Source of the DNA: Paracoccaceae bacterium
Lineage (GTDB): Bacteria > Pseudomonadota > Alphaproteobacteria > Rhodobacterales > Rhodobacteraceae
Direction: 5' to 3'
Assembly (NCBI GenBank): GCA_027489375.1
Contig: JAIXZW010000007.1
Coordinates: 186,001-250,000 of the forward strand
DNA length: 64,000 nucleotides
The notes beneath the pieces were generated by a model. The model was not told where the DNA came from and ran no database searches. It saw only the letters and a list, made by a program, of their open reading frames with translations. The translations under genes were made by a program, and so were the position numbers. Shown in pieces: positions 34,219 through 55,153 of this stretch; the first letter of the stretch is position 1; every line of letters starts with the position of its first letter.

Positions 34219-34242
34219 CGCATCCGCAGATTCGCGGACCGG

Positions 34243-34274
34243 AACGGGGCAAAGTTTGCAAACTTTGCCCCGTT
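34243..34274. terminator. 32-bp perfect palindrome downstream of maeB
   Basis: AACGGGGCAAAGTTTG (34243-34258) pairs fully with the following CAAACTTTGCCCCGTT (34259-34274). Only TT follows on the plus strand, so it is a weak or alternative type of terminator. The inside can also fold as two GCAAA/TTTGC mini-hairpins. Two imperfect GCAAA-TTTGC hairpins follow near 34305 and 34340. Confidence 0.55.
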
Positions 34275-34438
34275 TCGCTTCCAACCGCGAATAACCCCGC
34301 CCTTTGCAAAACTTTGCAGCCCGCCCCGCGCCATTTCTGCAAACATTTTGCCGCACCCCGCCCGCGCTTGCGGTAACAGCGTTGCGCGACCGCCCCCCGC
34401 GCGGGTAACAAACCGCAACTCGTGGAGGAGGGCATACC

Positions 34439-36331
34439 GTGGCATACCGTGACATCTACGCGAAGTGGAAGGCCGACCCCGAAGCCTACTGGCTCGACGC
34501 CGCAGGGGCCATCGACTGGGTGCAGCGTCCCGTCACCGCGCTGAACGACAGCCGCGCCCCGCTTTACGAATGGTTCACCGATGCCCGCGTCAACACCTGC
34601 TGGAATGCGGTGGACCGCCACGTCCTCGCCGGACGCGGCAAGCAAGCCGCCATCATCCACGACAGCCCCGTGACGGGGACGAAACACGTCATCACCTATG
34701 ACGAACTGCTCGACCGCGTCTCGCGCCTTGCGGGGGCGTTGAAAGCGCGCGGCGTGGGCAAGGGCGACCGCGTCATCATCTACATGCCGATGGTGCCCGA
34801 AGCGCTTGAGGCCATGCTCGCCTGCGGCCGCATCGGCGCGATCCATTCGGTGGTCTTCGGCGGCTTCGCGGCCAACGAACTCGCCGTGCGCATCGACGAT
34901 TGCAAACCCAAAGCCATCCTCGCCGCCTCCTGCGGGATCGAACCGAACCGCGTGGTGCATTACAAACCGCTGCTCGACGGCGCGATCGACCTTGCCACCC
35001 ACAAACCCGACTTCTGCGTCATCCTGCAACGCGAGCAAGAGGTGGCAAAGCTGGTCGAAGGCCGCGACCTTGCGTGGCATAGCTTCCAATACGGCGTCGA
35101 ACCCGCCGATTGCCTGCCGGTCGAGGGCAACCACCCCGCCTATATCCTCTACACCTCCGGCACCACCGGCGCGCCCAAGGGCGTGGTGCGCCCGACCGCG
35201 GGGCATCTCGTGGCGCTGGCATGGACCATGCGCGCGATCTACGACTGCGGCGTGGGCGATGTGTTCTGGGCGGCCTCCGACGTGGGCTGGGTCGTGGGCC
35301 ACAGCTACATCTGCTACGCCCCCCTCATCGCCGGATGCACCACCATCGTGTATGAGGGCAAACCCGTCGGCACGCCCGATGCGGGCGCCTTCTGGCGCGT
35401 GATTTCGGAACACAGGGTCCGCGCGTTCTTCACCGCGCCCACCGCCCTCCGCGCCATCAAGCGCGACGACCCCGAGGGCAAGCTGGTCAAGGATTACGAC
35501 CTCTCCCGCCTCAAGGCGCTCTACCTTGCGGGCGAACGCGCCGACCCCGACACGATCCACTGGGCGCAGCGCCACCTGAACGTCCCCGTGGTGGACCACT
35601 GGTGGCAGACCGAAACCGGCTATGCCATCGCGGCCAACCCCTTGGGCATCGAACACCTGCCCGTCAAGGTCGGCTCCCCCTCGGTCGCCATGCCCGGCTT
35701 CGACGTGCAGGTGCTGGACGAAGGCGGCCACCCCGTCCCCGCAGGCCAGCTTGGCGCCATCGCGATCAAACTGCCCCTGCCCCCCGGCACCCTGCCCACC
35801 CTCTGGAACGCCGAGGACCGGTTCCGTAAATCCTACCTCGACCACTTCCCCGGCTATTACGAAACCGGCGACGCGGGCTATGTGGACGAAGACGGCTACC
35901 TCTACATCATGGCCCGCACCGATGACGTGATCAACGTCGCAGGCCACCGCCTTTCGACCGGCGCGATGGAGGAAGTGCTCGCCAACCACAAGGATGTCGC
36001 CGAATGCGCCGTGATCGGCGTGGCCGATGCGCTGAAAGGGCAATCCCCCCTCGGCTTCCTCTGCCTGAACAAGGGCTGCACCACCCCGCATGACCAGATC
36101 ATCCGCGACTGCGTGCAACTGATGCGCGACAAGATCGGCCCCGTGGCCGATTTCAAACGCGCCGTGGTGATCGACCGCCTGCCCAAAACCCGCTCGGGCA
36201 AGATCCTGCGCGGCACGATGGTCAAGCTCGCCGATGGCGAGGCGTTCAAGATGCCCGCCACCATCGACGACCCCGCCATCCTCGACGAAATCCGCACCGC
36301 GCTGCAATCCATCGGTCTGGCCAAGGGCTGA
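34439..36331 (+). CDS. prpE: propionyl-CoA synthetase
   Basis: This 630-residue AMP-forming ligase activates propionate to propionyl-CoA. It has the acetyl/propionyl-CoA synthetase core LYTSGTTGAPKGVVRPTAGH near residue 238, DHWWQTETGYAIAAN near 385, YYETGDAGYVDEDGYLYIM, and the acetylatable lysine site KTRSGKILRG. The opening YRDIYAKWKADPEAYW and ASDVGWVVGHSYI agree with PrpE rather than AcsA. The start is GTG at 34439 with GGAGGAG upstream. The start lies in a 10-bp direct duplication (GGCATACCGT twice). Confidence 0.9.
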   Translation: MAYRDIYAKWKADPEAYWLDAAGAIDWVQRPVTALNDSRAPLYEWFTDARVNTCWNAVDRHVLAGRGKQAAIIHDSPVTGTKHVITYDELLDRVSRLAGALKARGVGKGDRVIIYMPMVPEALEAMLACGRIGAIHSVVFGGFAANELAVRIDDCKPKAILAASCGIEPNRVVHYKPLLDGAIDLATHKPDFCVILQREQEVAKLVEGRDLAWHSFQYGVEPADCLPVEGNHPAYILYTSGTTGAPKGVVRPTAGHLVALAWTMRAIYDCGVGDVFWAASDVGWVVGHSYICYAPLIAGCTTIVYEGKPVGTPDAGAFWRVISEHRVRAFFTAPTALRAIKRDDPEGKLVKDYDLSRLKALYLAGERADPDTIHWAQRHLNVPVVDHWWQTETGYAIAANPLGIEHLPVKVGSPSVAMPGFDVQVLDEGGHPVPAGQLGAIAIKLPLPPGTLPTLWNAEDRFRKSYLDHFPGYYETGDAGYVDEDGYLYIMARTDDVINVAGHRLSTGAMEEVLANHKDVAECAVIGVADALKGQSPLGFLCLNKGCTTPHDQIIRDCVQLMRDKIGPVADFKRAVVIDRLPKTRSGKILRGTMVKLADGEAFKMPATIDDPAILDEIRTALQSIGLAKG

Positions 36332-36336
36332 ACCGC

Positions 36337-36373
36337 CCCCCCCTTCCCCGACCGGCGCCGCCGGAAGGGGGGG
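36337..36373 (+). terminator. GC-rich hairpin after prpE
   Basis: An 11-bp stem CCCCCCCTTCC/GGAAGGGGGGG (36337-36347, 36363-36373) has a 15-base loop. No U-run follows, so the terminator role is tentative. Confidence 0.4.
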
Positions 36374-36491
36374 AGGCGGGCGGCAAAAGGACGGGCGAGG
36401 CGGCGCAAGACCCCCCCCGTCCCTTGCCCCGCCCCTTTCCCCGCCCCAACCGCATCTGGACCGCATCCGCGCCAGCGCGTAACGTCTGCCC

Positions 36492-36887
36492 ATGACCACC
36501 GCGCCGCAGTCACCACCCCCCTGCCCTTGGGCCGCCGCCGCCGACCTCATCGGCGACGGCGCTTCGCTGCGCTCCATCCTCGCGCTGGCGGGTTCCGAAA
36601 CCGGCCCCCGCATCCTCGCGCAGATGGAAGCCGATCTGGTCGTGACCGGCCACGGCCTGCAATCGGCCGTGACAGCCCGCGACTTCGCGGCAATCCGCGC
36701 CCAGAGCCACGTGCTCATCTCCATCGTCGGCACCATCGGCGCGATGGGCCTGCACGCCGCCGCCTGCCGCCTGAACGAAGCCGCCCATGCCGCCGACACG
36801 GGCAGCGTCGCCGCGCTGGTCCCGCCGCTTCTGGCCGATACCGCACGTCTGGTCGACGCCATCCGCGCCATCGGTGCCGCCCGATGA
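36492..36887 (+). CDS. Hpt domain phosphotransfer protein (LuxU-like)
   Basis: This 131-residue helical protein carries the Hpt motif RAQSHVLISIVGTIGAMGL. His73 would be the phosphoryl acceptor; the usual following Lys-Gly is replaced by Ile-Ser. It has no other domain. Its stop overlaps the ATG of the sigma-54-dependent regulator gene (ATGA). That regulator is close to LuxO, so the pair looks like a LuxU-LuxO phosphorelay arm. The hybrid sensor kinase that would feed it is not in the window. Confidence 0.75.
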   Translation: MTTAPQSPPPCPWAAAADLIGDGASLRSILALAGSETGPRILAQMEADLVVTGHGLQSAVTARDFAAIRAQSHVLISIVGTIGAMGLHAAACRLNEAAHAADTGSVAALVPPLLADTARLVDAIRAIGAAR

Positions 36888-38293
36888 CCGCCCCGCTCCT
36901 GCTGATCGAGGATACGCCCTCGCTGCAAATGGTCTACCGCTCGGTCCTCACCTCGGCGGGCCATGCCGTCCGCGTGGCAAGCAACGCCGCCGACGGGCTG
37001 GCGGCCTTCGTCGACGCCACCCCCTCCGTCATCCTGCTCGACCTCATGTTGCCCGACCGCGACGGGCTCGACCTCATGGCCGACATGCTCGCGCAACGAC
37101 CCGATGTCCCCGTCATCGTGATCACCGCCAACGGTTCGATCAACAAGGCGGTCGAGGCGATGCGGGCCGGAGCGCATGACTTCCTCGTGAAACCCTTCGA
37201 CGAAACCCGCTTCCTCGGCGCGGTCGAGAATGCGCTGACGGGGCACAGCGCGGCATCGCCGCGCAAGCACGCACCGGCGCCCCGCCAGCGTCCCGCCACC
37301 ACCGTCGCCCCCGCCTCCGACGCCTTCATCGGCTCGTCCGAGCCGATGGCCCGCATCCATGCCAAGATCCGCTCCGTCGCCCGTTCGATGGCGACCGTGT
37401 TCATCACCGGCGAAAGCGGCACGGGCAAGGAACTCTGCGCCCTCGCCGTCCATGACAATTCCGCCCGCGCCTCCGGCCCCTTCATCGCGCTGAACTGCGG
37501 TGCGATCCCGCAGGACCTGCTGGAATCCGAAGTCTTCGGCCATGTGAAGGGCAGCTTCACCGGCGCGATCTCCGACAAACCGGGTGCCGCGGCGGCGGCG
37601 GATGGCGGCACGCTCTTTCTGGACGAAATCTGCGAGATGGCCCCGGCGCTGCAGACGAAACTTCTGCGCTTCCTGCAAACCTCCACCGTCCAGCCCGTGG
37701 GGGCGACGCGCCCGCGCAAGGTCAACGTCCGCATCGTCTGCGCCACGAACAAGGACCCGCTCGAAGCCGTCCGCTCCGGCCAGTTCCGCGAGGACCTCTA
37801 CTACCGGCTCTTCGTGGTGCCGATCCACATGCCCCCCCTGCGCGAGCGGGGCGAGGATGTGCTCGAAATCGCCCGCGCCGCGCTCCACCGCTTCTCGAAC
37901 GAGGAGGGACGCAACTTCACCGACCTCTCGCCCGAGGTGGAGGCGCTCTTCCGCACCCACCCCTGGCCCGGCAACGTGCGCCAGCTCCTCAACGTCATCC
38001 GCCATGTCGTGGTGCTGAACGACGGCGGCCTCGTCCTGCCCGAGATGCTGCCCGAAAGCCTCAGCACCGGTCGCCCCGCCCCCTCCCCGGGCGCAGCGCC
38101 CGAAGGCGGCGCACCCCCGACCGCCCGCACCGACCTCGACCGGCTGATCGGCCGCCCCCTGGCCGAGATCGAACGCCTTCTGATCGAAGCCACGCTCGAC
38201 CGCTGCAACGGATCGGTCCCCAAGGCGGCACGGATGCTCGACCTCTCCCCCTCCACCCTCTACCGCAAGATCGAAGCCTGGCGGCAAGGCTGA
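36884..38293 (+). CDS. luxO: LuxO-like sigma-54-dependent response regulator
   Basis: This 469-residue protein has a receiver domain (1-120, Asp53 in ILLDLMLPDRDG), an AAA+ sigma-54 activation domain (about 145-380) and a Fis-type HTH at the C-terminus (SVPKAARMLDLSPSTLYRKI). Walker A is GESGTGKEL and Walker B is GGTLFLDEICEM. The sigma-54 contact loop reads GSFTGA instead of the common GAFTGA. Long stretches (EVFGHVKGSFTGA, LQTKLLRFLQT, EDLYYRL) match the LuxO group more than NtrC. It should activate promoters of the -24/-12 type, possibly small RNAs as in Vibrio. It is coupled to the Hpt gene. Confidence 0.82.
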   Translation: MTAPLLLIEDTPSLQMVYRSVLTSAGHAVRVASNAADGLAAFVDATPSVILLDLMLPDRDGLDLMADMLAQRPDVPVIVITANGSINKAVEAMRAGAHDFLVKPFDETRFLGAVENALTGHSAASPRKHAPAPRQRPATTVAPASDAFIGSSEPMARIHAKIRSVARSMATVFITGESGTGKELCALAVHDNSARASGPFIALNCGAIPQDLLESEVFGHVKGSFTGAISDKPGAAAAADGGTLFLDEICEMAPALQTKLLRFLQTSTVQPVGATRPRKVNVRIVCATNKDPLEAVRSGQFREDLYYRLFVVPIHMPPLRERGEDVLEIARAALHRFSNEEGRNFTDLSPEVEALFRTHPWPGNVRQLLNVIRHVVVLNDGGLVLPEMLPESLSTGRPAPSPGAAPEGGAPPTARTDLDRLIGRPLAEIERLLIEATLDRCNGSVPKAARMLDLSPSTLYRKIEAWRQG

Positions 38294-38335
38294 CCCAAGC
38301 CCCGCCCTCGCCGCGCCCCTGCCCGACCAAAGCAC

Positions 38336-38399
38336 GGGGGGCCGTCTGCCCCCCGCCGCGCCAAGGCGCGCCCCCCGAGGATATTTGTGCAAGCGTGAA
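38336..38399 (-). repeat. mosaic intergenic repeat (CTCGGGGGG core), copy 5
   Basis: On the minus strand: TTCACGCTTGCACAAATA, TCCTCGGGGGG, the variable hairpin GCGCGCCTTGGCGCG and GGGGGGC-AGACG-GCCCCCC. It faces copy 6, 27 bp away. Confidence 0.85.
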
Positions 38400-38426
38400 A
38401 GGGCAAAAGCGCCGCCGCCCCCCGCC

Positions 38427-38477
38427 TTCACACTGGCGCAAATATCCTCGGGGGGTGCGGGGGGCAGACGGCCCCCC
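38427..38477 (+). repeat. mosaic intergenic repeat (CTCGGGGGG core), copy 6
   Basis: TTCACACTGGCGCAAATA, TCCTCGGGGGG, then TGC and the constant hairpin GGGGGGC-AGACG-GCCCCCC. The variable hairpin is missing, so this is the shortest full copy. Confidence 0.85.
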
Positions 38478-38527
38478 GTGGACGGCCCGGCCAACGCAGC
38501 CCCGTCAGAACTTGCGCCCGCGCCGCA

Positions 38528-43332: not shown

Positions 43333-45090
43333 TCAGAAGAAGATGTCGTCCAACCCGTCGTCGCCCCCAGCCCCGCCCGCATGTTCCCCGCCCGCCCGTT
43401 CCGCGCCCTCCGTCGGCACCGGCGCGGGGGGGGCCACGCTTGCCAGCACCAGCGCCAGATCGCCGCCCGCCACGCGGTCATGCACATCGCGCTCGGATTG
43501 CATCGTGTAGCGGCCACGCAATACGGCAAGCCGCGCCTTGCCCTCGTCGTCCAGCGCACGGCGCGGCCCGAACATGGCCCGCCGCGCCGCCAGCGCCGCA
43601 TCGAAAAGGGCCATCTCGCGCAGCAAAAGCTGGAAGCGCGTCAATTGCTGCGCCGCCTGACCAAGCCGCAGCGGCAGATGCCGCCCCGCCTCGTCGAACA
43701 GGCGCGACGCATCCGCCCGACCCTGTCCGATCTCGCCGATCACCGCCCCGAGCGCGGTGGATTCGTCGAAGAAATGCCGCAGCGTCGCATCCAGCTTCGC
43801 CACCGTATCCCCGCCCAGCGCATCGGCAAGGTCTGCCGTCCGCGCAAGCGCCTGCTGCAGATTGGCGACGATCGTGTCGCTTTCGTCGGTCAGCGTGCGC
43901 AGCCATTGCGCAAGCTCGCGCAAGGCCCGCCCCTCTTCGCCCAGCTTGGCGCAGATCAGCACGGCATTCAGCCCCGACAGGCGCACCTGATGACCAATCT
44001 GGCGCAGCGCCGCCTCGTGCTGGAAGATCGCCCAGAGCCGCAGCCGCAACTCCAGCGACCGTTCGCGCATCCCGTCCAGCCGCGCCCGCACGGCAAGGAT
44101 GGCATCACGGAACCCCTCGACCCCGCCTTCGGCCTCGTCGGCACGGTCAAGATAGAAAGAGCGCGCCTGCGCCACGGTCTGCTCCGCCTCCGAGCGCACG
44201 GCTTCGGCGGCCTTGACGGAAACCCCGATCTCGCCCGCCGCAGCCTCCACCGCCGCCGCCGCCAGCCCCTTGGCAAGGTCGAGAAGCACCGGCTCCAGCG
44301 GCCCGCCACCCCGCGCCTGCGCCAGCACATCGCGCACCCGCTCCAGCCGCTGCCGCGTCGCATCCCCCGATTGCAGCGCGATCACCAACCGCGCCACCTC
44401 GGCGTCGATGCCCGCCATCCGTGCGCCCAGTTCCGCATTGGTCGCGGCAAGCCCGTCCTGACGCCGCAGCACCCCCTCCGCCACCCGCCCGAAGCGGGCG
44501 AGCGCCGGCAACACCCGCTGGCCGAGTTCGATGCGCAGCCCTTGCGTCTCTTCCTCCATCGCGGCCATGTCGTCGCCGATCACCGCCATCGCGCCGCGCA
44601 CGTCGGCCAGAATGCCCTCGGCCTCGGCCGCCATTGCGGCCAGCCGTTCGATGAAGGCCGTGACCTGCGGGCGCGGCGGGTTCAGCCCGTTGCCCTGAAT
44701 GCGTGCATTGATCGACACATTGGCGATGGTCCGCACCACGCGGTCAAGGTCGGCCACCTCGATCCGCACGCCGCGCACCGCAGACCGCAGCGCATCGCCC
44801 GCCTCCAGAAAGCCGGTGAAGCTGTCCTGCACATCGGCAAGATTGCCCTTCGTCCCGCCCACCAGCTTCAACAGCCGTGCGCCGTTCTGGGGGCCGAACA
44901 CCACCCGCAGCCGGTCGAACTGCCCGCCCAGAAGCCGCAGCAGGTCGACCGAGCCGACAAGCTCGTCGCCCGCCGACAGAAAGCTCGCCTCGGTGCGGCG
45001 CAGCACTTCGGAAAGGACCTCATCGGGATTGGAAAAGCCCGCCACTCCGGCAAGGGCCACGCCCCCCATGCGCTGCGCCATGATCGTCAT
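43333..45090 (-). CDS. uncharacterised chemosensory-operon protein with receptor-tip-like segments
   Basis: This 585-residue, almost wholly helical, soluble protein is the last gene of the che operon. Its ATG overlaps the cheB stop (ATGA). Residues 364-404 contain GLNAVLICAKLGEEGRAL, which lines up with the signalling tip of chemoreceptors ([19 protein letters not shown] in the MCP of this operon). A weaker echo (SINARIQGNGL) lies near residue 125. No membrane segment or sensor domain is seen. The C-terminus ends GDDGLDDIFF, acidic then hydrophobic, similar in style to CheY-binding tails such as that of CheZ. It could be a soluble receptor-like array component or a phosphatase; the function is not established. 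Confidence 0.65.
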   Translation of the reverse strand: MTIMAQRMGGVALAGVAGFSNPDEVLSEVLRRTEASFLSAGDELVGSVDLLRLLGGQFDRLRVVFGPQNGARLLKLVGGTKGNLADVQDSFTGFLEAGDALRSAVRGVRIEVADLDRVVRTIANVSINARIQGNGLNPPRPQVTAFIERLAAMAAEAEGILADVRGAMAVIGDDMAAMEEETQGLRIELGQRVLPALARFGRVAEGVLRRQDGLAATNAELGARMAGIDAEVARLVIALQSGDATRQRLERVRDVLAQARGGGPLEPVLLDLAKGLAAAAVEAAAGEIGVSVKAAEAVRSEAEQTVAQARSFYLDRADEAEGGVEGFRDAILAVRARLDGMRERSLELRLRLWAIFQHEAALRQIGHQVRLSGLNAVLICAKLGEEGRALRELAQWLRTLTDESDTIVANLQQALARTADLADALGGDTVAKLDATLRHFFDESTALGAVIGEIGQGRADASRLFDEAGRHLPLRLGQAAQQLTRFQLLLREMALFDAALAARRAMFGPRRALDDEGKARLAVLRGRYTMQSERDVHDRVAGGDLALVLASVAPPAPVPTEGAERAGGEHAGGAGGDDGLDDIFF

Positions 45091-46223
45091 CCCGTCGCTC
45101 CCAACCGCTGCCTGCGGGCAAAGCCCATGATCGCCGCCGCAATCCGCTCCAGCGGAAGGGTCTGCACCGCGCTGCCCATCTCGACCGCCTCGCGCGGCAT
45201 GCCGTAGACGACGCAGCTTGCCTCGTCCTGCGCGATGGTGGGAGCACCCATCGCCTTCATCTCGCCCATGCAGCGCGCGCCGTCGTCGCCCATGCCGGTC
45301 AGGATGATGCCCATCGCATTGGCCCCCGCCTGCACCGCCGCCGACCGGAACAGAACATCGACCGACGGGCGATGGCGGCTCACCTGCGCGCCGCCGACCA
45401 CATGGGCGCGGTAGCTTTGGCCCACACGTCGCAGCATCAGATGGCTGTCCCCCTGCGCGATCACCACGTTTCCCTGCGTCAGCACGGCGCCCTCGCTCGC
45501 CTCCACGATGTTCACCGCGCAAAGCGAATTCAGGCGTTTGGCAAAGGCCGCGGTGAATCCCGGCGGCATGTGCTGCACGATGGCGATGGCGGGCGCATCG
45601 GGCGGCAGCATCTCGAGCAGCACCCGCAACGCCTCGGTCCCGCCGGTCGACGCGCCGATGCAGACGATCGGCTCGGTCTTCGGCACCGCCCGCCCGATCA
45701 CCGGCGGCGGCAGGATCTCGTCCGCCGTCAGCTTCGGCCCGGGCGGGGCCATGCGCACCTGCGCGGGTCGCTGCGGCCTGCGGCCCAGACGGCTCTGCAC
45801 CGCCGCATGGATCGCGTCGCAGATGCGCACCGTCGCCTCCTGCCGCGACATCTCGTCCTTCGGCGAGGGTTTGAGGATCACCTCCACCGCCCCCGCCTCC
45901 AGCGCCTCGAAGCTCTTTTCCGATCCGAATTCCGTATGGCTCGAACAGACCACCACCGGCATCGGCCGCTGCTCCATGATCCGCTTGAGGAACGTGATCC
46001 CGTCCATCCCCGGCAATTCGAGGTCGAGCAGGATCACATCCGGCAATTCCGCCTTCATCAGCCGAACGGCGGCAAAGGCATCTCCCGCCGCGCCCATGAC
46101 ACACAGCCCCGCATCGCCCTCCACGATCTTGCGCAGCATGGTGCGGGCCGATGTGGAATCGTCCACGATCAGCACCTTGATCTTCTGCTCTGCGCGGGGA
46201 TTTGGACGCGGGGATGTCAACAT
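45087..46223 (-). CDS. cheB: protein-glutamate methylesterase CheB
   Basis: This 378-residue enzyme removes methyl groups from (and deamidates) chemoreceptors. The receiver domain (about 14-135) has Asp67 in VILLDLELPGMDG. The methylesterase domain (about 185-378) has Ser in CIGASTGGTEAL, His in IVQHMPPGFTAAF and Asp in GMGDDGA. It starts three bases after the cheR stop and overlaps the next gene. Confidence 0.96.
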   Translation of the reverse strand: MLTSPRPNPRAEQKIKVLIVDDSTSARTMLRKIVEGDAGLCVMGAAGDAFAAVRLMKAELPDVILLDLELPGMDGITFLKRIMEQRPMPVVVCSSHTEFGSEKSFEALEAGAVEVILKPSPKDEMSRQEATVRICDAIHAAVQSRLGRRPQRPAQVRMAPPGPKLTADEILPPPVIGRAVPKTEPIVCIGASTGGTEALRVLLEMLPPDAPAIAIVQHMPPGFTAAFAKRLNSLCAVNIVEASEGAVLTQGNVVIAQGDSHLMLRRVGQSYRAHVVGGAQVSRHRPSVDVLFRSAAVQAGANAMGIILTGMGDDGARCMGEMKAMGAPTIAQDEASCVVYGMPREAVEMGSAVQTLPLERIAAAIMGFARRQRLGATG

Positions 46224-46226
46224 GTC

Positions 46227-47084
46227 TCAGACCTTCTGGAAAATCGTCGGCCGCACCTGCTTCAGCCCATCCATGCGCACGACCATGCTTTCGGCATGGC
46301 CCACGACCAGATAGCCGCCCGGTGCGACATGGTTCGCAAGCCGCGCAACGACCCGCTCCTGATCCACCTGATCGAAATAGATCAGCACGTTGCGCAGGAA
46401 GATCAGATCGACATCGCGGTCGACCGGATAGGTCTCGTCCATCAGGTTCAGATGGCGGAAGCGCACATGCCGCCGCAACTCCGGCACCACCCGCACCTTG
46501 CCCGCCACGCTCGGATGGCGCGAGGACAGGAAGTACCGCTTCACCAGTTCCGGCGGCACGGTGGACAACTGGTCCGAGGAATAGACGGCCTCCGCCCCCC
46601 GCTCCAGCATCCGCTGGGAAATGTCCGTCCCCAGCACCGCAAAGTCAAAGGTCGTCCCCCGCCGCTGCGCCTCGGCGAGGACCATTGCCGAGGTATAGGC
46701 CTCCGCCCCTTCCGACGCGGCCGCGCTCCACAGCTTGAACCGCGGCTTGCGCCCCGCCTTCGGCCCCGACCGCGCCGCCGCAAGACGGTTGGGCAGGGCT
46801 TCGTTGGCAAGGAAATCGAAATGGTCGCTCTCGCGGAAGAAACTCGTCGTATTCGTCGTGATCAGGTCGATCACGATCCGCAACTCCTCTTCCATCCCCT
46901 GCCCGTCCAGAAGCTGGTGCAGATAGGCTTCGGTATCGGGCAGACCAAAGGCGATCACGCGCTTGCGCAAACGCTGTTCGATCATCACGACCTTGCTCTG
47001 CGGCAGGCTGATGCCGGTCAGGGACCGGATCAACTCGCGGAAGCGGTCACTGTAGTTGGTGCCGCCGGCTGACATCACATTCAT
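46227..47084 (-). CDS. cheR: chemoreceptor methyltransferase CheR
   Basis: About 285 residues; it transfers methyl from SAM to receptor glutamates. An N-terminal helical domain (YSDRFRELIRSLTGISL, then MIEQRLRKRV) is followed by the SAM domain with LWSAAASEGAEAYTSAMVL and DLIFLRNVLIYFD. No C-terminal pentapeptide-binding insertion is noted beyond the usual. The start is ATG at 47084; a GTG one codon upstream is possible. Confidence 0.95.
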   Translation of the reverse strand: MNVMSAGGTNYSDRFRELIRSLTGISLPQSKVVMIEQRLRKRVIAFGLPDTEAYLHQLLDGQGMEEELRIVIDLITTNTTSFFRESDHFDFLANEALPNRLAAARSGPKAGRKPRFKLWSAAASEGAEAYTSAMVLAEAQRRGTTFDFAVLGTDISQRMLERGAEAVYSSDQLSTVPPELVKRYFLSSRHPSVAGKVRVVPELRRHVRFRHLNLMDETYPVDRDVDLIFLRNVLIYFDQVDQERVVARLANHVAPGGYLVVGHAESMVVRMDGLKQVRPTIFQKV

Positions 47085-47099
47085 CACACTCGTCCCACA

Positions 47100-47612
47100 T
47101 CAGGCCGCAACCTGCATCTCCGACAGGTCGACCCGCTCGAACAACCGGTCAAGGTCGAGCACGCTCACCACGTCGCCCTTCAACCGCCCGATCCCTGCGA
47201 TGGCACTGCCCGACCAGCGCAGCAGTTCCGCTTCGGCCAGGGGCCGGATCGACGGCTCGTCCAACTGCGTCACCTCGATCACGCGGTCGGTCTTGACCCC
47301 GATGATCGCACGGCCCCCCGCATGCGCCACCCAGACGACGAGGATGCGGGTCTGCCCCGTATCCTCGCCCGCCGGACGGCCGAGCAGGCGGCGCAGGTCG
47401 ACCACGGGGATATTCGCCCCCCGAAGGTCGATGATCCCCAAAAGATACTCCGGCGCATTCGGCATCACCGCCACGGGCCGCAGGTCCAGAATCTCCTGAA
47501 CACGGCTCACCTCCACCGCATAAAGCGCGGCATCGGCGATGAAGGTCACGACATCTCCCATCGCAGCGCCCCGGTCGTCGGGGGCGCCGCTGCCTTCCAC
47601 GGGTCCGGCCAT
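47100..47612 (-). CDS. cheW: chemotaxis coupling protein CheW (second copy)
   Basis: This 170-residue CheW links CheA to receptors. It has FIADAALYAVEVSRVQEILD at the start, GIIDLRGANIPVVDLRRLLG in the centre and GVKTDRVIEVTQLD afterwards. An N-terminal extension of about 18 residues precedes the fold. The ATG at 47612 has GGGGGCGG upstream, 10 bp after the mcp stop. It shares limited identity with the other CheW at 49333, so the two may have distinct partners. Confidence 0.93.
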   Translation of the reverse strand: MAGPVEGSGAPDDRGAAMGDVVTFIADAALYAVEVSRVQEILDLRPVAVMPNAPEYLLGIIDLRGANIPVVDLRRLLGRPAGEDTGQTRILVVWVAHAGGRAIIGVKTDRVIEVTQLDEPSIRPLAEAELLRWSGSAIAGIGRLKGDVVSVLDLDRLFERVDLSEMQVAA

Positions 47613-47622
47613 CACCGCCCCC

Positions 47623-49299
47623 TTACGCCGCGTCGCGGCGTTTGAAGTTGGCGTCGAAATCGTCGCCCTCTCCGTCAAGGTCGAAGTCGAAGCCGCCATC
47701 GCTCGAAAGCGGCTTGCGCGGTTTCGAAGGCTGCCGCGCCGCGACCGACGCCGCAGGCCGCATCCGCCCGTTGCCGATGATGACACCCGCAGCACCACCC
47801 TCTTCGATCTTGAAGAAGTCGACCGCCGCCGCCAGTGCATCCGACTGGCTCGCCAGTTCCGTGGCGCTGGACGACAGCTCTTCCGACGCGCTGGTGTTCT
47901 GCTGCGTCACCTTGTCAAGCTGCTGGATCGACATGGAAATCTGCGCCGACCCCGTCGCCAGTTCGCGGCTCGCCGCCGAAATCTCGGTCACAAGCGCGCT
48001 GGTCTTCTCGATATCCGGCACAAGGCCAAGCAGCATCTCGCCCGCGCTCGCCGCCGTCCGCACCGTGCTTGCCGACAGGGACGAGATTTCCGCAGCCGCC
48101 GTCTGGCTGCGCTCGGCCAGCTTGCGCACTTCGGCCGCCACCACCGCGAAACCGCGGCCATGCTCGCCCGCCCGCGCCGCTTCCACCGCGGCGTTCAGCG
48201 CCAGAAGGTCGGTCTGCCGCGCGATTTCCTGCACGATCATGATCCGGTCGGCGATGGTCTGCATCGCCTGCACCGCATCGGCCACGGCCTTGCCGCTGGT
48301 GCGCGCATCCTCGGCCGACTTCACCGCCATACGCTCGGTGATCTGGGCATTGTCCGCGCTTTGCTTGATGTTGGCCGACATCTCCTCGACCGAAGCCGAA
48401 GCCTCTTCCGTCGATGCCGCCTGCTCCGTCGCACCCTGCGAAAGCTGTTCCGAGGTCGCCGCCATCTGCGCCGAACCCGCCGCCACGTTGCGCACGGCCA
48501 TCGTCACATTGCCCACGACCTCGCGCAGCTTCAGGATCATCTGGTTCACGGTGTCCTGCAACTGCGCGACCTCGTCATTGCCCTTGGTCGCCATCGTGCG
48601 CCGCAGGTCGCCCGAAGCCACCGCCGTTGCCAGTTCGATGCACTGGTTCATCCGGCCCGCGATCGACATGACGACCAGCGCCGCCGAAACCGTCCCGATG
48701 GCAAGCGAAGCGACCAGAAGCGAGATCAGAAGCACGCGGGCCGAAGCATAGTCCGCATTCATCTGCGCCACGGCGGCATTCGATTCCTCGTGCACCGCAT
48801 TGCGCAGCGCCTCGATGGCGTCGTTGTTCGCCGTCTCGACCGCCAGCGCCTCGCTCAGCAGCAGGTCATTCGCTGCCGCCGTCTGCCCCGCCGCCTTCAG
48901 CTTCAGGACGCGGTCGGCCAGCGCGGCGTTCTTTTCATGCTCCACAAGATAGGCGTCGAGCAGCGGTGCCTGCTCGGCGGTCAGGTGGGCGCGCATGATC
49001 CCGACATCCTTGTCGACCTGCGCGTGATAGGTCTCGCGCTCGGCCAGCATCCGCGGCGCACGGCCCGCATCGGGCAGCGACGGTTCGACAAGGCTTTCGC
49101 GCAGGTTGATCTGCAACAGCAGTTCCTGCGTGATCAGGTCTTCGGCGGTCAGCATCCGCAGCACATCCGACTCCACCATTTCGGTGATCGAGTCATTCGC
49201 GGTCTTCAATTCATGCAGCGACATCACCGCAGACACACCGCTCAGCAGGAACACGACGCCAAAGATGGCCCCGAGTTTGGTTTTGATCGTCAATTTCAT
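47623..49299 (-). CDS. methyl-accepting chemotaxis protein
   Basis: This 558-residue transmembrane receptor has a first helix ([17 protein letters not shown]), a periplasmic four-helix-bundle-type domain (about 35-190), a second helix ([19 protein letters not shown]) and a HAMP region. A cytoplasmic signalling domain follows, with tip [18 protein letters not shown] and [18 protein letters not shown]. The tail is acidic and lacks a CheR-binding NWETF-type pentapeptide. The ATG at 49299 is chosen over a TTG six codons upstream. It is the only full receptor in this che operon. Confidence 0.94.
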
Positions 49300-49332
49300 C
49301 GCACTGTCACCCTTCAATGGTATCGCTGACTG

Positions 49333-49815
49333 TCACGCCGCCGCCGCTTGCGCGGTCTGGGCCGAAAAGATTGCAGGAAGATCGGGCAGCAGCACGAAGC
49401 CATCCGCCCCCTTGTAAAGCCCGATCAGATACTCGGGCGGCCAGATGCTTGCCGTGTCGGGCAAGCGCTCCATCGCGCCCGTCTCGATGGTCGCGACCTC
49501 GTAGACCGCATCCGCCTGTATGGCGACCAGCGCAGGCTCCCCGTCGAGCGGGATTTCCAGCACGAGGATGCGGCTCCGCTCGTCCGCCTCGGCATCGGGA
49601 ATGCCGAGCGCGATCTTCAGGTTCGCCAAAGGCACGACAGACCCGCGCACATTCACCACATGCGGCACGAAAGCCCCCGCGCCCGGCACCCGCGTCACGG
49701 GCAGCGGATCAAGGATCTCGCGCAGCAAATCGGCCGAAATCGCAAGCGTCTGGCTTCCCAGCGCAAGCGTCACCAAAGTGACCTGTTCCTTCTGTTGCAG
49801 CACCGCCAGTTTCAT
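49333..49815 (-). CDS. cheW: chemotaxis coupling protein CheW (first copy)
   Basis: This 160-residue protein has the CheW fold: VTLVTLALGSQTLAISADLL, then PHVVNVRGSVVPLANLKIAL and AIQADAVYEVATIE. The core is flanked by a short N-terminus and an Ala-rich tail. Its ATG overlaps the cheA stop (ATGA), so it is coupled to the kinase and is the likely main adaptor. Confidence 0.92.
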   Translation of the reverse strand: MKLAVLQQKEQVTLVTLALGSQTLAISADLLREILDPLPVTRVPGAGAFVPHVVNVRGSVVPLANLKIALGIPDAEADERSRILVLEIPLDGEPALVAIQADAVYEVATIETGAMERLPDTASIWPPEYLIGLYKGADGFVLLPDLPAIFSAQTAQAAAA

Positions 49816-51911
49816 GCCGCCACCTCTGCAAATGCCATGCCCGCAAATCCGGCCGGACCCGTTCCGCGGCCCAATCCGATCAGATGGCCCACGTCGAGGA
49901 TCAAGGCCACCGACCCGTCACCAAGGATCGTCGCCCCCGAAACCGCCCGCACACCCGCGTGCAGCTTCGACATCTGCTTGATCACCGTCTGGTTCGTGCC
50001 GACGATCCGGTCGACCACGATCCCCACGCGGTTCTCGCCCGTTGCGACGATGACCACATTCTGCTCAGCCCCCGGCTCGCCCGCGCAATCGAACAGCCCG
50101 CGCAGCCGCAGGAAGGGCACGAAGCGGCCGCGGATATCCAGAAAATCCCCCGTCCGCTTCGGCAGCGCCCGATCCGGCGGCAACGCCACGATCTCTTGCA
50201 CCATCGCCATCGGCAGGGTGTATTTCTCGCCCGCCACCTCGACGAGCAGCCCTTCGATGATCGCCAGCGTCAGCGGCAGCCGCAGTGTCACACTCGTCCC
50301 CGACCCGAGCGTCGATTCGATCTCGATCGCCCCGCGCAGGCTTTCGATGGTGCGCCGCACCACATCCATGCCGACGCCTCGGCCCGAAAGCTCCGTCACC
50401 TCGGTCGCTGTCGAAAAACCCGGCTCGAAGACCAGCGCGAAGACCTGCGCCTCGGTCAGCACGGCATCGGGCGCGATGATCCCTTGCGCCACCGCCTTGG
50501 CGCGGATGCGCGCGGGGTCCATTCCCCGCCCGTCGTCGCGCACGCGGATCAGCACCTCGGCCCCCGCATGTTCGGCGGACAACTCGATCATCCCCGTCTG
50601 GGGCTTGCCGCTGGACTGCCGCTCCTCCGCCGTCTCCATCCCGTGGTCGATGGCGTTGCGCAGCACATGCACCAGCGGATCGGCCAGCTTTTCGATCACC
50701 GTCTTGTCAAGCTCGGTATCCTCGCCCTGCACGTTGAAGCTGACGGGCTTGCCCAGATTGTCCGACAGGCCCGAAATCAGCCGCCGGAAGCGCCCGACCA
50801 GCGACCGCATCGGCACCATCCGCATCGTCATCGTCGCATCGCGCAGCCCCGCCGCCAGCCGTGTGATCTGCTCGGCGGTGGACATCAGCGCCGGATCACG
50901 GCTCTGCCGCGCCAGTTCCGTCAGCCGCGCCTCGACGATCACCAACTCGCCTACCGCATCCATCAGCGCATCCAGCCGCTCCGCCGGAACGCGGATCGTC
51001 GCAGCCGCCGCAACCACCGCCGGACCCTCGGCCACAGCGGAAGCGACAGCCTGCAGCACGGACGCCGCCTGCACCGGCGTCGCCGCCACCTGTGCCAAAG
51101 GCCCGGCACCTGCGGGCGCGGCAACCGCCCCGCCCCCCGCCCCAGCCCCCGCCCCAGCCTCCTCGCCAGCCTCCTCGCCGGCCCCCTCGCCGAGTTCGAA
51201 GGCGAAGCCCTCCCCCTCGGGCAAGGCGCGGACCAGCTTCCATTCGGCATCGGTGAACAGGAACACGTCCTCCACCTGCGCCTCGGTCACGGCGGCGGGC
51301 AGGCGCATGCGCCAGACGATATGGCACTGGTCCGGTTCCAGCAGGTCAAGCGGCGGCACATCCGCCAGATCGGCCACGATCCCCTCGGCCCCCATCGCCC
51401 GCAATTCGGCCAGCACCACCTCGGGCCGCGCACCAAGGCCAAGTGCCTCGCCCAACAGGCGGAACTCCAGCAAAGCCGGCCCCGTCACCAAGGGCGTCAC
51501 CAAGGGCGTCGCCACGGGCACCGCCGCCGCAGGCTCCGCCGTCCCTTCGGCCAAGGCACCAAGCCCCGCAAGGATCGCATCGCGCCGCCCCTCGGGATCG
51601 GCCACACCATCGACCAGCCCCGGAATCTCGTCCCGCGCCGCCAGCGCCAGCCGGATCAACTCGGCGCTCACCGGCACCTCGCCGCCGCGCACGCGGTCGA
51701 ACAGCGTTTCGAAACGGTGGATGAACGCCGCAAGCTCGACAAAGCCGAACATCGCCCCGCTGCCCTTGACCGTATGCAGGTCGCGGAACACCTGATTGAC
51801 CAGCCCCATATCCTGCGGCGCCGCCTTCAGATCAAGCAGCCCGCGCTCCAGACTGTCCAACAGATCGCGCAATTCCTCGCGGAACACGCCCGCCAATTCG
51901 TCATCTACCAT
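49812..51911 (-). CDS. cheA: chemotaxis histidine kinase CheA
   Basis: 699 residues. P1 (1-105) has His46 in DLHTVKGSGAMFGF, the autophosphorylation site. A middle region with an Ala/Gly/Glu linker (about 245-265) replaces or shortens P2. P3 dimerisation helices follow. P4 has VLRNAIDHGMETAEERQ, VRDDGRGMDP and GRGVGMDVVRR for ATP binding. P5 at the C-terminus is the CheW-like regulatory domain. It phosphorylates CheY and CheB. Its ATG shares a base with the cheY stop. Confidence 0.96.
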   Translation of the reverse strand: MVDDELAGVFREELRDLLDSLERGLLDLKAAPQDMGLVNQVFRDLHTVKGSGAMFGFVELAAFIHRFETLFDRVRGGEVPVSAELIRLALAARDEIPGLVDGVADPEGRRDAILAGLGALAEGTAEPAAAVPVATPLVTPLVTGPALLEFRLLGEALGLGARPEVVLAELRAMGAEGIVADLADVPPLDLLEPDQCHIVWRMRLPAAVTEAQVEDVFLFTDAEWKLVRALPEGEGFAFELGEGAGEEAGEEAGAGAGAGGGAVAAPAGAGPLAQVAATPVQAASVLQAVASAVAEGPAVVAAAATIRVPAERLDALMDAVGELVIVEARLTELARQSRDPALMSTAEQITRLAAGLRDATMTMRMVPMRSLVGRFRRLISGLSDNLGKPVSFNVQGEDTELDKTVIEKLADPLVHVLRNAIDHGMETAEERQSSGKPQTGMIELSAEHAGAEVLIRVRDDGRGMDPARIRAKAVAQGIIAPDAVLTEAQVFALVFEPGFSTATEVTELSGRGVGMDVVRRTIESLRGAIEIESTLGSGTSVTLRLPLTLAIIEGLLVEVAGEKYTLPMAMVQEIVALPPDRALPKRTGDFLDIRGRFVPFLRLRGLFDCAGEPGAEQNVVIVATGENRVGIVVDRIVGTNQTVIKQMSKLHAGVRAVSGATILGDGSVALILDVGHLIGLGRGTGPAGFAGMAFAEVAA

Positions 51912-52276
51912 TACCCGAGTACCTTCTTGATGACCGCCAGAAGCTTGTCCTGCGTAAAGGGCTTGAGCATCCAGCCCAGCGCCCCCGCCTCGCGCGCCTG
52001 CGCCTTGAGTCCCTCTTCCCCGTCCGTCGACAGCACGACGATGGGCACGCCCCGCCCCATCGGATGCGCCCGCAGCGCACGGATCATGCCCAGACCGTCA
52101 AGGTTCGGCATGTTCTGGTCGGTGATGATCGCATCGACGCCGCCGGCCGTGGCCTTGTCCAGACCGTCCTGCCCGTCGACAGCCTCGATCACGCGATAGC
52201 CCGCCTCTTGCAGCGTCATCGCGATCATCCGCCGGATCGACGGGCTGTCATCCACCGTCAGGATTGTCTTGGTCAT
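51911..52276 (-). CDS. cheY: chemotaxis response regulator CheY
   Basis: This 121-residue single receiver domain has the acidic pair Asp9-Asp10, the acceptor Asp53 in AIITDQNMPNLDG, Thr/Ser in VVLSTDGEEG and the conserved Lys in WMLKPFTQ. It is the output of the operon's CheA; whether it acts on the flagellar motor or another target cannot be told. It overlaps STAS (ATGA) and cheA (TAATG). Confidence 0.95.
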   Translation of the reverse strand: MTKTILTVDDSPSIRRMIAMTLQEAGYRVIEAVDGQDGLDKATAGGVDAIITDQNMPNLDGLGMIRALRAHPMGRGVPIVVLSTDGEEGLKAQAREAGALGWMLKPFTQDKLLAVIKKVLG

Positions 52277-52572
52277 CTCTGTCCCCCGTTGAAATCTTGC
52301 GCAGGCAAGGGCAGGCCCAGACGCGGCAGGGCCAGCGCCCGTGCCGCCTCGGCGACGGCGCAGCCTTCGGGCAGGGCCAGATGCAACCTGCGCCCTGTGC
52401 GGTCGGCCAGATGGCCCGCCGAAACGATCACCTGCAGAATTCCTGCATCGACCTGCGACACCCCGCCCAGATCGAGCGTCACGTCACCAAGGTCCAGCGC
52501 CCCGCACAGGTCGGCCGCCAGATCGCGTGCATCCGCCTGCCGCAGAATGCCGGTCTTCGCGATGGTCTTCAT
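52273..52572 (-). CDS. STAS domain protein
   Basis: This 99-residue STAS fold has GDVTLDLGGVSQVDAGILQV near the centre, where anti-sigma antagonists carry DLSxVxxxDSxG. The usual phospho-Ser position is Ala or Gly here, so phosphorylation control is doubtful. It is the first gene of the che operon and is coupled to cheY. STAS proteins head several alphaproteobacterial che clusters; the role is unknown. Confidence 0.82.
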   Translation of the reverse strand: MKTIAKTGILRQADARDLAADLCGALDLGDVTLDLGGVSQVDAGILQVIVSAGHLADRTGRRLHLALPEGCAVAEAARALALPRLGLPLPAQDFNGGQR

Positions 52573-53623: not shown

Positions 53624-55153
53624 TCACCCGCCCGAAGGGGAGAACATCACGCTCCCCTGCGGTAGCTGCGGTGCGACGAACATGTTCGTGGGCGGCTGCA
53701 CGCGGATCACGCTCGGCATGGTCAGCGATGCAGGTTCCAGCGCCGGTGACGGGCGCGGTGTCGGCGTGGGAGCGGCCGCGACCGGCGCGCCCTGCGGTGC
53801 GGGCAGGGCCGAGGTCTTGCGCTGCGGCGCACCGGGCACCACGGGCGGTGCGGCCTTTTCCGCCTGCGCCGCATCCGCAGCCTCGCGGCCCGCCGCGGCG
53901 GCGATCTTCATCGCCTCCTGCACGACCACGGCCGCCACATCGCCCTCTTCGCCATCCAGCCCGCGCCGCGCCGCCTCTTGCAACAGCTTCAGCGCCAGAT
54001 TGGCCATCTGGATCGCCTCTGCCGCCAGCTTCATGCGGTCCTCGGACAACTCGGCCTCCTGCGACTTCTTCGCCGTCTGGATCGCCTTGGTCGCGGTCTT
54101 GGCCGCTTCTTTGCCGATCAGCGACGCCTGCTCCCGCGGATCGCGTGGATTGTTGCCCCTGCCGTCCGGCGCGTCGCCCTGCGGCGCGGCACCCTCGGGC
54201 ACGTCCTCTTGCGGCATCGCGCCCGGACCAAGCGGCTGCGGGTTCTGCGGCGGCAAGGCCTGCTGCACCGGCACGTTCAGATCGCCGCCACCCTGCGCCG
54301 ACGCCTCGAGGAACGACGGGTCCGCCGTTCCGTTATGCTCCACCGCTCCGGCACCGCCGGGCACCAGCCCGCGGCATTGCGCATAGACGCCGGGGTTCAT
54401 CACCTGACCCAGCAGCTCGAAGGTCGCAAGGCTGACCATCTGGCGCAGCGCGAAGTTCATCGCCTCGCGCTCCATCCCGCCCGCATCCAGCGACACCAGC
54501 GTATCGCCAAAGAACTGCGACCCGCTGAAACCCGCCTCGGACATGAAGATCTGCTTCTGCAGCGGGATCGACGCCACGACCCGCCCCGTGAAGGCATCGA
54601 CCATCGACAGGTCCAGCCCCACCATGATCCGGCTCTGCCGCTTTTTCGGCCCGAAGCCCGCGACCGTAACCTCGTATCCCCCGCCCGGAATGTAATCGAG
54701 ACTGTTGATACTGCCCGAAACGTAGAAATTCACCGGCACCTGGCTCTTGATGTCGCGGATGCCCCACGTCGCCTCGATCACCGAAACGTTGACCTGACTG
54801 CGGTTCACCACCGTCACACCGGCGCGGAACAGCGCCGATTGCACCATGTCCCCCGCGCCCTGCGTCACCATCTTGCCCGAGCCGCCGTCGTTGAACGACT
54901 CCTTGCCCGTGTTGTCCGTGACCTGCCCGACCGCAAAGACGACGTTGCGCTTGATCTTGCCGCGCAGACAGCCCAGCGCCGAATCGAACGCCGTCACGAT
55001 GTCCTCGATCGGCGGACCCTGAACCAGATTGGCCCGCTCCCAGGGCTTTTCCGTCGCCCCCGGAACCTGCGTGCAACCCGCCACGGCAAGCGCCACCACG
55101 GCCGATACGATCCGCCGCGCCGCGACCCCCTGTTTTCCCCGCATCAGTTGCAT
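53624..55153 (-). CDS. hfaB: CsgG/HfaB-type outer-membrane lipoprotein
   Basis: This 509-residue lipoprotein has the lipobox AVAGC. A CsgG-type domain follows (about 45-260), with VVFAVGQVTDNTG, MVQSALFRAGVTVVNRS, YVSGSINSLDYIPGGGYEV and GLDLSMVDAFTGRVVASI. CsgG/HfaB proteins form the outer-membrane channel that exports curli subunits or anchors the Caulobacter holdfast. A further 250 residues, rich in Pro, Gln and Ala with a coiled-coil-like block (about 330-420), extend it well past the usual length (CsgG about 277). The ATG at 55153 has AGGGG upstream and overlaps the HfaA-like gene by 10 bp. Confidence 0.8.
   Translation of the reverse strand: MQLMRGKQGVAARRIVSAVVALAVAGCTQVPGATEKPWERANLVQGPPIEDIVTAFDSALGCLRGKIKRNVVFAVGQVTDNTGKESFNDGGSGKMVTQGAGDMVQSALFRAGVTVVNRSQVNVSVIEATWGIRDIKSQVPVNFYVSGSINSLDYIPGGGYEVTVAGFGPKKRQSRIMVGLDLSMVDAFTGRVVASIPLQKQIFMSEAGFSGSQFFGDTLVSLDAGGMEREAMNFALRQMVSLATFELLGQVMNPGVYAQCRGLVPGGAGAVEHNGTADPSFLEASAQGGGDLNVPVQQALPPQNPQPLGPGAMPQEDVPEGAAPQGDAPDGRGNNPRDPREQASLIGKEAAKTATKAIQTAKKSQEAELSEDRMKLAAEAIQMANLALKLLQEAARRGLDGEEGDVAAVVVQEAMKIAAAAGREAADAAQAEKAAPPVVPGAPQRKTSALPAPQGAPVAAAPTPTPRPSPALEPASLTMPSVIRVQPPTNMFVAPQLPQGSVMFSPSGG

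Follow-up and report, generated by a model that had tools for sequence, protein, structure and literature searches.

The terminal gene of a chemotaxis operon in a member of the Paracoccaceae raises the question of what use such an operon has for a soluble, helical protein that appears to carry degenerate chemoreceptor tips. This gene, here named X, occupies 43333..45090 on the minus strand of the window, by which we mean the whole stretch of 64,000 nucleotides that was analysed, and it encodes 585 aa in which translation and family alignments locate a DxxxQ motif, two tip segments derived from MCPs and, at the C-terminus, an acidic-hydrophobic stretch. The open reading frame and its place in the che operon, both put forward in the original prediction, are real: X is read from the minus strand, and its start ATG overlaps the stop codon of cheB. 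A plus-strand reading of 43333-45090 as a gene was rejected.

According to Pfam, X is the terminal che gene of the minus-strand operon STAS-CheY-CheA-CheW-MCP-CheW-CheR-CheB-X. The first gene encodes a STAS-domain protein of the anti-sigma-antagonist type (52273..52572), followed by CheY, the proposed substrate of X (51911..52276), CheA (49812..51911), CheW (49333..49815), an MCP with a 4-helix-bundle sensor, HAMP and an intact signalling tip (47623..49317), a second CheW (47100..47840 as the longest ORF, its true start lying probably beyond the MCP stop), CheR (46227..47087) and CheB (45087..46223), all on the minus strand. The CheA of this operon is one of three H-kinase_dim (CheA-type kinase) matches in the 3.9 Mb genome. 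A FliM gene is found about 10 kb from a different CheA (contig C7 of the same genome, about 202-213 kb; loci L101 and L159), so that the output of the window's operon need not be the flagellum, and the flagellar che cluster is probably another one. On the strand of the che operon and upstream of it, a CsgG-family protein (53624-55153; HfaB-like in NCBIfam, below the cut-off), surrounded by unassigned ORFs, hints at a possible link to surface adhesion. Elsewhere in the window, a minus-strand ORF of 1430 aa (34202-38494) had no Pfam or NCBIfam match and is probably spurious, with the real gene on the plus strand, because the open frame opposite to it (36332-38293) shows similarity to a response-regulator domain, 28% to CheY.

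The original prediction rested on residues 364-404, which had been aligned by eye with the signalling tip of the operon's own MCP. They lie within the second tip segment (43855..44004, minus strand; residues 363-412, RQIGHQVRLSGLNAVLICAKLGEEGRALRELAQWLRTLTDESD..., with GLNAVLICAKLGEEGRAL at residues 373-390), which hhalign aligns with MCPs and in which 34/50 residues are invariant in 15 sequences. A pairwise comparison with the operon's own MCP shows weak likeness, with 14/42 identities in an ungapped alignment, a result that 12/1000 shuffles of X also reach. Profiles make it firm: when 21 X-type proteins were compared with 16 MCPs, X 353-467 aligned with a probability of 95.6% (P 1.2e-8), and the reversed MCP profile, used as a control, gave 1.8%. 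The segment is also conserved among homologues, 29 of its 41 residues being invariant in these 15 sequences, X itself plus 14 close relatives, compared with 101/585 over the whole protein. A weaker echo that had been noticed near residue 125 proved genuine as well. This first tip echo (44632..44745, minus strand; residues 116-153, DRVVRTIANVSINARIQGNGLNPPRPQ..., tip Asn128) is more degenerate, with 22/38 residues invariant in the same 15 sequences; by hhalign, the N-terminal half of X aligns with MCPs at 52-55% (P 1.2e-4 to 1.4e-4; reversed 2.0-2.4%), placing SINA on ALNA, and with the C half at 87-91% (P 1e-6 to 4e-6; reversed 23-36%). Neither a match to another family lacking any alignment to MCPs nor a loss of conservation in this segment, the two outcomes named beforehand as contrary to a chemoreceptor tip, was observed, because descent from the MCP tip and conservation of the segment are both supported.

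Relatives of X show how far such tips have diverged. Pfam detects MCPsignal (PF00015) in L025 (88 bits), L026 (99.5) and L027 (42.7), finds it below the 34.6 cut-off in L028 (33.0 bits) and L016 (23), and gives no match in X at E<=1; L025, from a Magnetococcales MAG, and L026, from another proteobacterial MAG, have a complete MCP tip. The X family is thus a decay series starting at a genuine chemoreceptor tip, and the alignments show that both tips of X descend from the MCP signalling domain. As had been proposed, X has no sensor domain detectable by Pfam, and it is soluble, hydropathy staying below the membrane-helix level throughout, with no membrane helix found at a maximum 19-residue mean of 1.44; the same maximum is 2.83 in L025, 2.61 in L026, 2.11 in L131 and 2.84 in L137. 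Searches with X returned DUF948 (E 1.8e-4, below cut-off), one weaker row and nothing else from Pfam, no match at E<=0.1 from NCBIfam and none among PLSDB plasmids. The X profile run against PDB sequences retrieved MCPs and chemoreceptors first (best 1.5e-18), coiled coils following from 6.7e-5.

AlphaFold (8 sequences; mean pLDDT 81, pTM 0.57) predicted X to be all helix. The first echo forms a turn (135-140) joining helices 67-134 and 141-260, and the second tip sits within one unbroken helix (324-491), which was again unbroken when the C half alone (residues 262-545) was modelled (pLDDT 66). These models, which are monomers built on few sequences, speak against a hairpin at the second tip. 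Foldseek gave no match to the model at E<=1e-3. In VIA-align, 8c5v_I aligned with X 10-261 over 249 residues (Z 9.9, rmsd 6.9) and 3g6b_A with X 32-243 over 210 residues (Z 9.3, rmsd 3.4); both are MCP structures, and the comparison does not discriminate helical bundles, unrelated helical rows outranking the MCPs with up to Z 15.9 and CheZ being absent from the best 50 rows.

Conservation in X is concentrated outside the tips as well. Invariant positions in the 15 sequences cluster at 116-153, 236-252 (9/17) and 363-412, and invariance elsewhere does not exceed 12%, save in two short C-terminal motifs (4/16 and 3/9). In an alignment of 10 diverse members, built without regard to motifs, the invariant residues are M1, E34, F37, E148, Q240, D243, R246, Q247, N375, G384, L476, Y528, M530, E533, R534 and H537; Q240, D243, R246 and Q247 are invariant also in 14 non-redundant members, giving a central group L-Q-x-x-D-x-x-R-Q in the X family. 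This group lies in LQSGDATRQRLERV (44335..44376, minus strand; residues 239-252), where D243 and Q247 form a CheZ-type dyad in register with CheZ DLTGQ. Towards the end of the protein, a second strict motif, YTMQSERDVH (43480..43509, minus strand; residues 528-537), emerged from the family alignments; in the form Y[TA][MT]xx[EQ]RxxH it follows the helical part and precedes the tail in X-type proteins and in several intact-tip relatives, and no counterpart was seen in 30 CheZ sequences. A DNA pattern for YTMQSERDVH occurs in 6/397 genomes, four of which (G730, G696, G654 and G752) are pattern matches alone. The protein ends in DDGLDDIFF (43336..43362, minus strand; residues 577-585), which on comparison of tails resembles the CheY-binding tail of CheZ; where X ends in DDIFF, relatives end in DNIELF or DITFF.

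The distance between tip and dyad is largely fixed. In X, D243 follows the first-tip Asn128 by 115 residues, and the same number separates tip Asn and Asp in 23/26 proteins (113, 113 and 117 in the other three). Three single-hairpin relatives are among them, their MCP tips, canonical or nearly so, having been located by the tip sequence itself. Among 78 ORFs bearing an MCP tip, defined by pattern and each terminated by a stop within its locus, 16 have Q..D...Q at +115 (13), +116 (2) or +117 (1), and all 16 finish with [IVLFM][DETS][LF]F, compared with 0/62 of the remaining tip-bearing ORFs. With the tip excluded, the DxxxQ segments of X-type (21) and intact-tip (15) proteins aligned in register at 97.4% (P 1.2e-11). 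In 11 of 16 ordinary MCPs, positions +111/+112 hold an E/Q pair, and 31/62 of the other MCPs have one somewhere in +109 to +114; we take the +111/+112 pair to mark the methylation helix position. If this pair is the methylation site, the dyad would lie about one turn past the methylation position, with Q240 on it.

A profile of the DxxxQ arm, again without the tip, found matches at E<=1e-3 in 105/299 genomes of the phylum. Besides three loci already in the set, 27 loci from these genomes (L115-L141) were read, and D...Q was present within the matched stretch in 27/27. Shorter members of about 330-350 aa (L128, L130, L132 and L139) keep QFED...Q and a DIDLF, DVDLF or EVELF tail, and no MCP tip was seen 115 residues upstream in these four. 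Exceptions concern the tail, L024 having no hydrophobic one and L116 a different end. Of the 19 matching genomes of a first search, L018 (internal stops, not family) and L019 (an MCP-like protein) were dropped, and L020-L023 are, judged by their length, the same contigs as L002, L014, L013 and L012. A wider search gave 165 matching genomes, with full-length scores (168-688 bits) only in X's own genome and in G104, G374 and G110; the remaining listed genomes score 58 bits or less and were treated as MCPs without individual checks. Membership of X in the DxxxQ hairpin family is well supported by these alignments, and the best reading of X would be an alphaproteobacterial soluble, internally duplicated form of this widespread family.

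In CheZ of E. coli, the catalytic residues are numbered D143 and Q147. The available text of PMC7750401 and PMC12654446 identifies the D and Q of DXXXQ as the phosphatase residues of CheZ. The 30 CheZ sequences used here read [AET]xx[FY][QH]DL[TS]GQ, and D243/Q247, inside the predicted helix 141-260, agree with the CheZ feature of a DxxxQ on a helix; the residue before Gln is Gly in CheZ and Arg in X. A profile of 55 family members aligned with these sequences at 77-85% (P 6e-6 to 2e-5), with D and Q falling on DLTGQ, compared with 0.8-0.9% for reversed CheZ and 1.4% for the arm of 16 ordinary MCPs; as the 55 segments were excised by their Q..D...Q pattern, the invariance of the dyad in this set is not independent evidence. 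The 15 intact-tip members alone gave 80.6% and a 26-member profile 23-42%, and masking of 11 motif columns left the family at 12% (P 0.0024) in an unchanged register. Alone, the 21 X-type members reached 0.9%, and a full-length X-type profile 6.4%. For the reverse comparison, an HMM was built from the 30 CheZ sequences and used to scan every ORF in 35 che loci, among them three without a DxxxQ gene (L100, L101 and L155, the last cut); it gave six matches at E<=1e-3, all of them DxxxQ hairpins (L103, L143, L144, L148, L150 and L153), and there was no separate CheZ in the stretches covered. When the 55 members of the family were scored together with 62 ordinary MCPs, the top ten were all family (best 24.8 bits versus 8.8 for ordinary MCPs; medians 2.9 versus -2.5, relatedness not corrected), and X itself scored 1.2 bits, at rank 57/117. 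Pfam finds no CheZ (PF04344) in X at E<=1; of 8 members submitted to its model, one is matched, L129, which at 19.8 bits (E 8.2e-4) stays below the cut-off of 30.7 and also carries MCPsignal at 92 bits. The link to CheZ runs through intermediate members rather than X, and it is weak after motif masking.

Above the cut-off, CheZ has no match in the genome of X and none in the 16 other genomes of the same family with X, two of which (G002 and G006) have matches below the cut-off (E 0.0014 and 0.0074). CheZ is present elsewhere in the genome in 4/4 more distant carriers, three with an X-type protein (G104, G110 and G374) and one with a single hairpin (G183).

Of the 32 loci with a DxxxQ gene, 30 have it next to cheB or cheY in the series of che-like ORFs. 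These labels were assigned by the best BLAST hit among the proteins of the window, so that some CheY or CheB labels may belong to other response regulators. The cheY of L152 and that of L153 lie on the opposite strand, and L147 and L150 are ambiguous. Two DxxxQ hairpins occur in L143 (4661-5908 and 17572-18774), each followed by its own CheY. Proteins with an intact tip on the arm, labelled "methyl-accepting", stand beside cheY or after cheB, with the tip 115-117 residues upstream of DxxxQ. On plasmids of Pseudomonas sp. HR96 and Aeromonas sp. BC14, a DxxxQ hairpin annotated as "methyl-accepting chemotaxis protein" is followed by response regulator, STAS, CheA, MCP, CheW, CheR, CheD and CheB, with an additional MCP preceding CheR in BC14 only.

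A similar order has been described for stage 1 F7 clusters, which in the accessible portion of Ortega et al. 2020 (PMC7184735) comprise an anti-sigma antagonist, cheY, cheA, two cheW, an aer2-like receptor, cheR, cheD, cheB and an mcpA-like gene. The window's operon has this order minus cheD, with X in the mcpA slot, a likeness of gene order. The same portion of PMC7184735 reports that F7 clusters with a McpA-like receptor have no cheZ in the cluster, that the role of this receptor in F7 systems is unexplained, that two species keep their F7 array after its deletion, and that McpA-like receptors associate with the F6 array, as cited there. In what is available of a Vibrio review (PMC7534058), the McpA-like proteins CttP/PA0180 and VCA1088 are filed as 24H outliers, and CttP is linked to attraction to trichloroethylene. 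Excerpts of both sources describe the C-terminus of McpA as highly conserved, without CheR interaction and not a CheR pentapeptide. The literature searched, seen in part and with most subscription papers lying outside it, describes neither a DxxxQ motif in McpA-like receptors nor a CheZ-like chemoreceptor.

We favour, with moderate confidence, the view that X belongs to a receptor-derived family of CheZ-type CheY-P phosphatases, of which it is a soluble and duplicated form, and that it probably serves as a built-in "off switch", not as a decoy receptor. From the hairpin, which carries the Asp-xxx-Gln dyad 115 residues along the returning helix and ends in an acidic-hydrophobic tail, we infer phosphatase activity, binding of the tail to CheY and docking of the tips. 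The tail DDIFF would capture the phospho-CheY encoded in the same operon, and D243/Q247, on the helix below the first tip, would work on the phospho-Asp in the manner of D143/Q147 in CheZ, so that CheY-P is dephosphorylated. Through its tip-derived parts, X may attach to the CheA/CheW baseplate or to its partner subunit, and such docking would put the off switch beside the kinase, comparable to CheA-short holding CheZ in E. coli (as stated in the title of a cited reference). Several findings weigh against a phosphatase: X alone has no match to CheZ, Arg replaces the Gly before Gln, CheZ is present in the four more distant carriers and matched below the cut-off in G002 and G006, the second tip is modelled as unbroken helix, L024 and L116 deviate in the tail, the published traits of CttP fit a receptor, and a D...Q spacing arises by chance in helices.

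The role first proposed for X, a decoy or scaffold receptor shaping the array, would have its degenerate tips stand among MCP tips and tune or space the CheA/CheW array, with DxxxQ as a structural element. The MCP homology of X is firm, the second tip is its best conserved part (29/41 invariant; N375, A376, G384 and G387 kept in distant members), and clustering with the F6 array has been reported for a McpA-like protein in the accessible parts of PMC7184735 and PMC7534058; the degenerate tips may also dock to CheA/CheW. We nevertheless consider this role unlikely, and found it unsupported as the main reading because it omits the dyad motif Q240/D243/R246/Q247, the CheZ-like tail, the 115-residue spacing common to intact-tip relatives and the cheZ-less place of the gene. 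Moreover, the tip is more degenerate in the first hairpin, where the dyad lies, and the persistence of F7 arrays after deletion of the McpA-like receptor in two species, reported in the part of PMC7184735 available, argues against a scaffold.

A CheY-P buffer or sink, in which the tail binds CheY-P, the dyad is inactive and X, like an anchor, keeps CheY near the array, seems less probable still. It would suit the conserved tail, the position of the X gene in the operon of cheY, the 1.2 bits of X against CheZ and the Arg that replaces Gly before Gln; a mere binder, however, should not need both D243 and Q247, which are invariant amid mostly variable neighbours. That X is a substrate or regulator of CheR/CheB on the adaptation side is very improbable. 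In its favour, Q240 would be at the MCP methylation position, the Gln at +112 is invariant where 11/16 ordinary MCPs have the E/Q pair, the gene follows cheB, and the S. meliloti DXXXQ phosphatase CheT also partners CheR in the excerpts of PMC7750401 and PMC12654446, but the C-terminus was rejected as a CheR/CheB pentapeptide, the CheR pentapeptide matching in 0/16 intact-tip members versus 15/62 other MCPs, and the accessible text of PMC7184735 describes the McpA C-terminus as having no CheR interaction.

Returning to the phosphatase, many relatives now labelled receptors may be the same kind of off switch. On a broader suggestion we are more hesitant, although it could well be right: the McpA-like/24H receptors of cheZ-less F7-type clusters may be array-docked CheY phosphatases made from an MCP hairpin, in other words the missing CheZ, with their conserved C-terminus as a CheY-binding tail, and X would be the alphaproteobacterial branch, in which the unit was duplicated, lost its membrane anchor and let its tips diverge. 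These proteins would then not be receptors, or not only receptors. The clustering with the F6 array and the response to trichloroethylene linked to CttP fit a receptor, and so weigh against a phosphatase as the whole story. If true, a receptor-derived phosphatase would explain the puzzles of McpA-like proteins together, many annotated "methyl-accepting chemotaxis proteins" (matches in 105/299 genomes, 27 loci read, two plasmid examples) would be signal-termination enzymes, and CheZ and the MCP hairpin may have a common ancestry.

Compared with known systems, X is akin to the MCP signalling domain (PF00015) in that both its tips descend from it, and differs in being below Pfam detection, in its altered tip residues and in the DxxxQ beside the methylation-helix position. 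With CheZ (PF04344) it shares a DxxxQ on a long helix and a tail of similar acidic-hydrophobic composition (DDGLDDIFF, next to DDLLSSLGF and the alphaproteobacterial DDIDALFD of CheZ), whereas X has no direct sequence match, is much longer and bears MCP tips. CheT of Sinorhizobium and Agrobacterium is likewise an alphaproteobacterial DXXXQ CheY phosphatase, in S. meliloti one without significant homology to known chemotaxis proteins according to the available text of PMC7750401 and PMC12654446; compared with X by description only, it differs in that the same text describes no MCP tip for it. Unlike McpA-like receptors, X has two degenerate tips and no membrane segment, and its operon lacks cheD. 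X occupies the same slot after cheB as these receptors, in a cluster without cheZ as described in the portion of the literature available, and intact-tip proteins with such neighbourhoods carry DxxxQ at 115-117 and end in DITFF or EVELF; CttP and VCA1088 are tied to the DxxxQ family by gene order and by their published description, as far as the sources extend.
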